Below are positions 25,375 through 30,290 of a stretch of 64,000 bases of DNA, one piece after another. The notes under the pieces were generated by a model, which made no database searches, had not been told where the DNA came from, and worked only from the letters and a program-made list of their open reading frames with translations. Source of the stretch: Leuconostoc carnosum (GTDB lineage: Bacteria; Bacillota; Bacilli; Lactobacillales; Lactobacillaceae); assembly GCF_014207505.1 (NCBI RefSeq), contig NZ_JACHGL010000003.1:186001-250000 (forward strand), given 5' to 3'. Numbering within the stretch: the first letter of the stretch is position 1; each line of letters opens with the position of its first letter. The position numbers and the translations under genes were made by a program.

Positions 25375-25403
25375 TAGACAATGTTTCAAAAAACTGTTAC
25401 ACT
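25375..25403 (+). promoter_or_regulatory. hflX promoter
   Basis: TAGACA, 17-base spacer, TACACT with an extended TG-T element, starting immediately after the phosphatase stop codon. Start near 25410; leader about 167 bases. Confidence 0.75.
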
Positions 25404-25441
25404 AACAATAATCTAATAAAGGAAGTACAGTAACTTGTTGA

Positions 25442-25477
25442 ATGAATTTTAAGATCCCGTATGATAAAAATAACTGA
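25442..25477 (+). other. Candidate leader peptide in the hflX leader
   Basis: An 11-codon ORF (MNFKIPYDKNN) whose TGA stop is exactly the three-base loop of the hairpin at 25466-25486. An alternative five-codon ORF, TTG at 25435 (M-L-N-E-F), is better spaced from GGAAG at 25421-25425. Either could carry a ribosome into the hairpin region. Confidence 0.45.
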
Positions 25478-25486
25478 GTTATTTTT
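25466..25486 (+). promoter_or_regulatory. AT-only hairpin in the hflX leader
   Basis: AAAAATAAC-TGA-GTTATTTTT, perfect nine-bp stem ending in T's. Weak as a terminator because it has a single G-C pair; overlaps the leader ORF stop codon. Confidence 0.5.
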
Positions 25487-25540
25487 GTGTACATTTTCTT
25501 GAGATTGGTTCGGAATTAGCTGTCTTTGACGCGTAAAATG

Positions 25541-25574
25541 CCCCCAGTCTCGTAATTTACTGGAGGTATTTTTT
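25541..25574 (+). terminator. Terminator/SD-sequestering hairpin before hflX
   Basis: CCCCCAGT (25541-25548) pairs with ACTGGAGG (25559-25566, one mismatch) and is followed by TATTTTTT. The 3' arm contains the hflX ribosome binding site GGAGG. Upstream GAGATTGG (25501-25508) can pair over eight bases with CCAGTCTC (25544-25551), which would disrupt it, so two exclusive folds exist. Confidence 0.65.
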
Positions 25575-25576
25575 AT

Positions 25577-26875
25577 ATGACAGAGCAACATTCAACGACA
25601 GAAGCCCCACGCCAAGTATTCTTGGTGGGTCTAACAACAAATAACGGTAGTTTTAACTACGAAATAGAAGAATTAGGCAATCTAGCGAAAGCAAATAATC
25701 TAGAACCAGTTGAAACTTTTACACAAAAGCTTGAACGCCCTAATCCGGCATTGTATTTTGGTAAAGGTAAAGTTGAAGAATTGGCTGAAGCAGTTAAAAC
25801 ATACGATGTAGATATGATTATCGCCAACGATGAATTATCCCCCTCACAAATTCGTAACTTAGAAAAAGAGACCAATGTGACAGTCGTTGACCGTACTGGG
25901 TTAATTTTAGATATTTTTGCACAACGTGCACAAACTAAAGAAGCTAAATTACAGGTACAATTAGCACGCTTACAATACCAATTACCACGTTTACGCACAA
26001 GCATGTCGGTTAGTCTCGATCAACAAACAGGTGCTGGTGGTGGTGGCTTTACATCACGTGGTGCTGGTGAAACAAAGTTGGAAGAATCTCGTCGCCGTAT
26101 TACCGCACAAATGGTTCATATTCGCCAAGACCTGGCTTCACTCACAAAAAGTGACACAACACGCACTGTACGTCGTAATAGCAATGACCTAGCTAACGTC
26201 GCCTTAGTAGGCTACACAAATGCCGGCAAGTCGACATTAATGAACCGTTTGCTCAAACGTTTTGGCGTTGGCGCCGATACTGACACCAGCAAACAAGTGT
26301 TTGAAAAAAATATGCTCTTTGCTACGCTGAACACAACCGTACGTCAACTTACATTACCAGATAAAAAGCAGTTCTTATTAAGTGATACGGTTGGCTTCGT
26401 TTCTAAATTACCCCATAACTTAGTCGCTGCCTTTAAATCAACACTGCAAGAAGCAGCCAGCGCTGATCTACTACTACAAGTTGTCGACGTGTCAGATGAC
26501 CATTATAAAGAGATGATGGCTACTACTGAAGCAACCTTGGCTGAAGTTGGTATTCATGACATCCCAATGATCACTATCTATAATAAAGCAGACCGAACCG
26601 AACTCACTTATCCTGAATTATCGGGTGAAAATGCAATTACTATTTCAGCATTAGATACTGCCTCACAAGATGCACTGATCACATTGATTAAGCAACAAAT
26701 ATTTAAAGATGTTACAACAGTCAAACTCCATGTACCTTTTGATAAGGGTGGTATTTCAGCAAAGTTAGCAGCAAATCACACTTTTATAACAGAAGATTAT
26801 GATGAACATGGTAGCTTAATCACGGTTGAATTATCGCAGTTAGAACGCGAGCTATTTAAAGAATATATTATTTAA
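25577..26875 (+). CDS. hflX: Ribosome-associated GTPase HflX
   Basis: 432 aa. HflX binds the 50S subunit and splits stalled or hibernating 70S ribosomes. N-terminal HflX domain (NPALYFGKGKVEELAE; ANDELSPSQIRNLE), glycine-rich GAGGGGFTSRGAGETKLEESRRRI linker, then the G domain: GYTNAGKSTLMNRL (G1), SDTVGFVSKLPHNL (G3), YNKAD (G4). GGAGG ribosome binding site ten bases before ATG, buried in a leader hairpin. Controlled, I infer, by attenuation. Confidence 0.96.
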   Translation: MTEQHSTTEAPRQVFLVGLTTNNGSFNYEIEELGNLAKANNLEPVETFTQKLERPNPALYFGKGKVEELAEAVKTYDVDMIIANDELSPSQIRNLEKETNVTVVDRTGLILDIFAQRAQTKEAKLQVQLARLQYQLPRLRTSMSVSLDQQTGAGGGGFTSRGAGETKLEESRRRITAQMVHIRQDLASLTKSDTTRTVRRNSNDLANVALVGYTNAGKSTLMNRLLKRFGVGADTDTSKQVFEKNMLFATLNTTVRQLTLPDKKQFLLSDTVGFVSKLPHNLVAAFKSTLQEAASADLLLQVVDVSDDHYKEMMATTEATLAEVGIHDIPMITIYNKADRTELTYPELSGENAITISALDTASQDALITLIKQQIFKDVTTVKLHVPFDKGGISAKLAANHTFITEDYDEHGSLITVELSQLERELFKEYII

Positions 26876-30193: not shown

Positions 30194-30290
30194 GTTTGCG
30201 CTCCTTTGATTAGTTGTTTACAAGTATAGCCGTTCCTTGCCATACATTTACAATAAGTTTCCGGGGCTTATCGTGAGGTAAACAATACCG
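30194..30290 (-). promoter_or_regulatory. L13-type mRNA leader
   Basis: TTGTTTAC and GTAAACAA (plus 30278-30285 and 30214-30221) can pair on the minus-strand RNA and enclose about 55 bases with further short helices, ending at the AAAGGAG ribosome binding site. Bacillus and relatives carry an L13 leader proposed to autoregulate rplM; assignment to that family is inferred, not tested. Confidence 0.6.

Follow-up and report, generated by a model that had tools for sequence, protein, structure and literature searches.

What controls hflX in Leuconostoc, and what is the purpose of the 202 nt that separate it from the phosphatase-like gene upstream? In the window (the whole 64-kb stretch of DNA that we analysed) this interval lies directly 3' of the phosphatase gene and contains a promoter, a Shine-Dalgarno sequence, several pairings and a terminator. 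It is a genuine regulatory leader, conserved and clearly defined. In our opinion it is likely to act as a transcription attenuator which senses translation arrest and which, together with a translational lock, controls the gene of an HflXr-type GTPase.

The gene itself (hflX, 25577-26875, on the plus strand, as are all leader features below) encodes a ribosome-splitting GTPase. It matches TIGR03156 with 406.9 bits and is the sole full-length HflX match in the genome; the window's nearest relative in the same genus group, a record named L. miyukkimchii, is 87% identical in HflX. Judged by comparison of protein sequences, it belongs to the HflXr clade and not to the other HflX clade of Bacilli. 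An HflXr-type query gives the window protein 392 bits, while members of the other clade reach at most 328, and in the tree the window protein and the other Lactobacillaceae HflX proteins join PDB 8a57 at 99 support. We take PDB 8a57 to be Listeria HflXr; among the 399 Bacilli there was no Listeria genome against which this could be checked, the best match being 60%. Elsewhere in the window, at 30211-30289 on the minus strand, a ribosomal protein L13 leader (RF00555, 58.8 bits) precedes rplM and is an ordinary autoregulatory leader.

Does the leader have a transcript of its own? The initial annotation spoke of a good promoter, and indeed a sigma-70-type promoter, TAGACA-17-TACACT with TG before the -10 element, stands at 25375-25403. 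Its position and 17-nt spacer are constant in an alignment of 18 Leuconostoc leaders, the window's included, from which the copy of a 19th genome was omitted as near-identical to one already present. Transcription would start near 25410. A second promoter-like site at 25438-25465 was rejected, as it is not kept in the genus alignment. The promoter bears on one alternative, namely that the leader merely terminates transcription of the upstream gene, ahead of hflX. It does follow the phosphatase gene directly in the window, and Fructobacillus-like relatives have small terminator-like hairpins at that place. However, the leader has its own promoter in all species, it remains next to hflX in the L012/L014-L018 group, whose upstream sequence is another, and a plain terminator needs neither a conserved upstream open reading frame (uORF) nor a covarying 5' structure. 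We give this alternative next to no credence.

Which reading frame, then, would a ribosome translate? The sole ORF common to all 18 leaders is a five-codon uORF at 25435-25452, TTG TTG AAT GAA TTT TAA (MLNEF stop), which is the predicted ribosome sensor. Its Shine-Dalgarno sequence, AAGGAAGT (25419-25426), can pair with the anti-Shine-Dalgarno in all species; the letters are either AAGGAAGT or AAAGAGGT in two species groups, with the register unchanged and the distance of 8 nt to the UUG constant. Every aligned leader has the same layout, TTG, three variable codons, TTT and TAA (M-x-x-x-F-stop). Length, start codon and register are thus identical in 18 of 18, and codons 2-4 vary freely in amino acid (MLNEF, MSNEF, MLTKF, MLNNF, MVNKF and others across the genus). 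An Arg-Leu-Arg peptide is absent from the uORF in these 18 leaders; R-x-R ORFs flagged in three of them (L004, L010 and L013) were rejected, since their starts are not conserved in the genus. The UUG start is a point that we count against an attenuator. An invariant weak start of this kind would hold occupancy, and hence leakiness, low.

The initial annotation had placed the sensor elsewhere, in an 11-codon ORF (ATG at 25442, MNFKIPYDKNN, stop at 25475-25477) whose TGA lies in the loop of a nine-bp hairpin. Both the ORF and the hairpin, AAAAATAAC-TGA-GTTATTTTT at 25466-25486, exist in the window, and a ribosome starting at 25442 would likewise cover the pairing arm at the uORF end described below. 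But the ORF occurs in 0 of the 17 other aligned leaders, and the Shine-Dalgarno sequence is about 15 nt from its ATG, against 8 nt from the UUG. The proposed logic of a stop codon in the loop also fails in the model: with a ribosome at the end of this ORF in this species (the last codon is at about +37 from the UUG) the antiterminator stays off, its probability being 0.01 at +36 and 0.00 at +42. It is very improbable that the 11-codon peptide is the sensor.

How is the five-codon uORF connected with the RNA structure? Its last codon and stop fall inside the 5' arm of an anti-antiterminator, AATTTTAAGA (25445-25454; helix 2, 99.5% of cells paired), whose 3' arm is TCTTGAGATT (25497-25506). This OFF pairing of AAUUUUAAGA with UCUUGAGAUU, which couples translation to the switch, was missing from the initial annotation. 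Around it stands the closing helix P0 (helix 1), formed by ACAG at 25427-25430 and CTGT at 25520-25523, in which 4 of 4 pairs are changed on both sides. In the OFF state this helix engages the region where the uORF begins, and it would prevent late re-initiation. The apical hairpin is variable in sequence, with compensatory changes in helices 3-4. The leader as a whole folds at -46.5 kcal/mol against -29.6 for shuffled sequences (z -5.0, 0 of 200), and 95.4% of cells are paired in the OFF structure of the 18-leader alignment, against 42-47% when it is slid. Ten pairs of the OFF fold are changed on both sides, and 0 of 500 shuffles reached its covariation score.

Because the OFF fold is stable without a ribosome and the invariant TTTTAA sits within a helix, one could argue that the leader is a ribosome-independent riboswitch, a thermosensor or a protein-bound element, and that conserved pairing has produced the five-codon ORF incidentally. 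We consider this improbable. The TTG columns are invariant and the Shine-Dalgarno register is kept although the TTG takes part in no pair of the consensus OFF fold or of the antiterminator and the spacer right beside it is 64% conserved. Further, a conserved core of the ligand-like kind is lacking, with conservation in the apical part at 58%, and a search of Rfam gave no match for the leader.

The alternative fold had been proposed at the outset as an eight-base pairing, and it holds: GAGATTGG (25501-25508) is the 5' arm and CCAGTCTC (25544-25551) the 3' arm of an antiterminator, each with 100% of cells paired. In the RNA the ON pairing is that of GAGAUUGG with CCAGUCUC, and the strand common to both folds is GAGAUU (GAGATT in the DNA, shared with the 3' arm of the anti-antiterminator). 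The proposed terminator that hides the ribosome binding site of hflX was also borne out, CCCCCAGT/ACTGGAGG being part of a longer stem. This stem pairs AAAATGCCCCCAGT (25535-25548; helix 5, 97% of cells paired) with ACTGGAGGTATTTT, which with its T run occupies 25559-25574. It has 14 positions (25535-25572) with one C.A mismatch, and the hflX Shine-Dalgarno GGAGG (25562-25566) lies inside it. Antiterminator and terminator overlap at CCAGT and are mutually exclusive, and both are kept in 18 of 18 leaders. We do count against our reading that the two central helices, anti-antiterminator and antiterminator, scarcely vary within Leuconostoc and hence show little covariation; the antiterminator, fully paired as it is, receives no support from covariation of its own. 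The OFF helix also has two U.G wobbles that are likewise invariant, as expected if the strand must also fit the antiterminator. As to the mismatch, 25543 opposite 25564 (the A of the Shine-Dalgarno) at the centre of the terminator stem, most species retain it although one substitution suffices to repair it, as L002 shows; it may serve to adjust how strong the terminator is.

Given these elements, the mechanism that we propose is the following. RNA starting at about 25410 would expose the Shine-Dalgarno sequence and the five-codon UUG uORF. In normal growth a ribosome would complete the uORF and depart, whereupon the last codon and stop would pair with UCUUGAGAUU; with the antiterminator strand sequestered, the terminator would form immediately upstream of the hflX start codon and conceal the Shine-Dalgarno of that gene. 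If a ribosome were instead arrested at any of the five codons, it would block the anti-antiterminator arm and leave GAGAUUGG to pair with CCAGUCUC; once this antiterminator is formed the terminator would come too late, and hflX would be transcribed and translated.

This proposal can be examined in a thermodynamic model in which the bases under a ribosome footprint are barred from pairing and the RNA ends where CCAGUCUC has just emerged. In 18 of 18 species the modelled probability of the antiterminator, 0.00-0.37 in free RNA, reaches 0.98-1.00 once a ribosome sits on the start codon of the uORF. A footprint anywhere on the five codons frees the antiterminator (means 0.95-0.99), whereas one placed far 5' of them, or one on the apical hairpin, mostly fails to do so. 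Three results of the modelling count against us. The probability in free RNA is already 0.05-0.37 in three species. When everything but the antiterminator arms is shuffled, 12% of the resulting sequences likewise have a starting value under 0.05, which means that the OFF state alone is not rare. Finally, the full-length RNA of several species is predicted to refold into the terminator even with the ribosome bound, so that the switch would have to be kinetic and timing would matter. On the whole, occupancy of the uORF is predicted to decide the fold, given the conserved ORF and Shine-Dalgarno sequence and the dependence seen in the model.

What would arrest the ribosome? The brevity of the uORF and the free variation of its codons 2-4 point to arrest at initiation or at the first peptide bonds as the probable trigger, as with lincosamides, pleuromutilins and streptogramin A, and not to macrolide arrest on a special peptide. 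It is also possible, though in our opinion doubtful, that the attenuator responds to a general signal, that is slow initiation, elongation or termination, whatever the cause, and that HflX clears the stalled ribosome and thereby represses its own gene. In the model, stalling at any point of the uORF is effective, codons 2-4 are not conserved, the HflX is the only one in the genome, and sensing of several classes of arrest by one uORF is known from E. coli toiL (PMC12121999). On the other hand, the precedent set by hflXr, vmlR and cplR is drug sensing. More speculative still is our suggestion that HflX controls itself by clearing leader ribosomes and that the minimal, peptide-independent uORF is a general detector of early arrest serving the sole HflX of a genome, with an origin in Leuconostoc separate from that of the Arg-Leu-Arg leaders before other HflXr genes.

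Is such a leader found elsewhere? A covariance model was searched against 19 Leuconostoc and 379 other Lactobacillaceae genomes. In 19 of 19 Leuconostoc there is a single copy of the leader, directly 5' of hflX, and the 379 others have no credible match; weak matches in two genomes of a neighbouring genus and a few in Leuconostoc were rejected, being either ordinary terminators or the leader read on its opposite strand. Where neighbouring genera were examined, hflX lies close behind the phosphatase-like gene without this leader. The simplest reading would be that the leader had a separate origin inside the Leuconostoc lineage.

In L. fallax the leader is diverged (L028 2374-2480, 22 bits), and we take it as a relative and not as a member. 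There GCAAGAUUGG faces CCAACCUUGC in place of GAGAUUGG facing CCAGUCUC, a difference which, in this one genome only, suggests compensatory change. The same leader has CUCCAA/UUGGAG plus T6 and is traversed by an ATG ORF (MINKCLQDWMTSFKRFFSNLASLIGVFYGK) which overlaps the start of hflX; this leader may operate on another principle.

Other Lactobacillaceae have short ORFs of other kinds before hflX. Arg-Leu-Arg uORFs are seen in Lapidilactobacillus (MRLRIAPK...) and Lacticaseibacillus (MRIRLRNAQD). Short R-[LI]-R ORFs with a good Shine-Dalgarno sequence, such as MRLRIAPKQLNSNTTK, MRIRLRNAQD and MWIEIRLRSTQSNK, among others, lie about 100-310 nt upstream of hflX in these two genera and other relatives (L054, L055, L059, L069, L122, L126 and L128). 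They are apparently Arg-Leu-Arg hflXr leaders outside Bacillales. In Lactobacillus (L067, L084, L070 and L079) hflX is preceded by different short ORFs with Shine-Dalgarno sequences (a TTG start with MIFQKRWIVL, an ATG start with MMIF), perhaps another separate leader type.

How does the Leuconostoc leader compare with known systems? In Listeria monocytogenes hflXr is regulated by attenuation through the rli80 leader (PMC6310831), which is alike in gene subfamily, in its order of uORF, anti-antiterminator, antiterminator and terminator, and in the predicted logic of a stalled ribosome. The differences are that the Listeria uORF has 14 codons with Arg-Leu-Arg, the Leuconostoc uORF five codons with UUG and without the motif, and that the Leuconostoc gene is the only HflX in its genome. 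The initial annotation had supposed an attenuator that responds to ribosome stalling and is independent of the Listeria version; with exclusive folds and a uORF conserved in one genus and no Arg-Leu-Arg, this is well supported.

With regard to the sensor, the experimentally tested leaders of vmlR and cplR are closer. Their uORFs have 3 codons each, MIN (PMC9226507) and MRI (PMC10201436), and the vmlR variants MDN, MDK and MRK still permit lincomycin induction (PMC9226507). As in Leuconostoc, a very short uORF that is not strictly conserved in sequence lies at the base of the anti-antiterminator hairpin, followed by an antiterminator and an intrinsic terminator, with the main Shine-Dalgarno masked. 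However, their targets are antibiotic-resistance ABC-F genes and not hflX, and the Leuconostoc uORF differs in its five codons and UUG start. The uORFC-6-1 family (PMC8632094), which we compared by its description, is also a structured uORF leader 5' of hflX in Firmicutes, but it belongs to Bacillales, has a conserved Arg-Leu-Arg and keeps its structure wholly downstream of the uORF start, whereas the Leuconostoc structure also includes the Shine-Dalgarno region. We found no paper on the Leuconostoc hflX leader in the searchable literature, outside which most subscription journals lie. Hence the kind of regulation is known, while the sensor, its pairing with hflX and the restriction to one genus are new as far as Rfam and the searchable literature show.

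Taken in this context, the leader suggests that ribosome rescue of the hflX type came under stall-sensing control more than once and with different sensors, a drug-specific peptide elsewhere and a five-codon, near-universal sensor in Leuconostoc. It predicts that these food-fermentation bacteria would have an inducible intrinsic tolerance to early-arrest antibiotics, and so compact a leader is well suited to asking whether HflX regulates itself.
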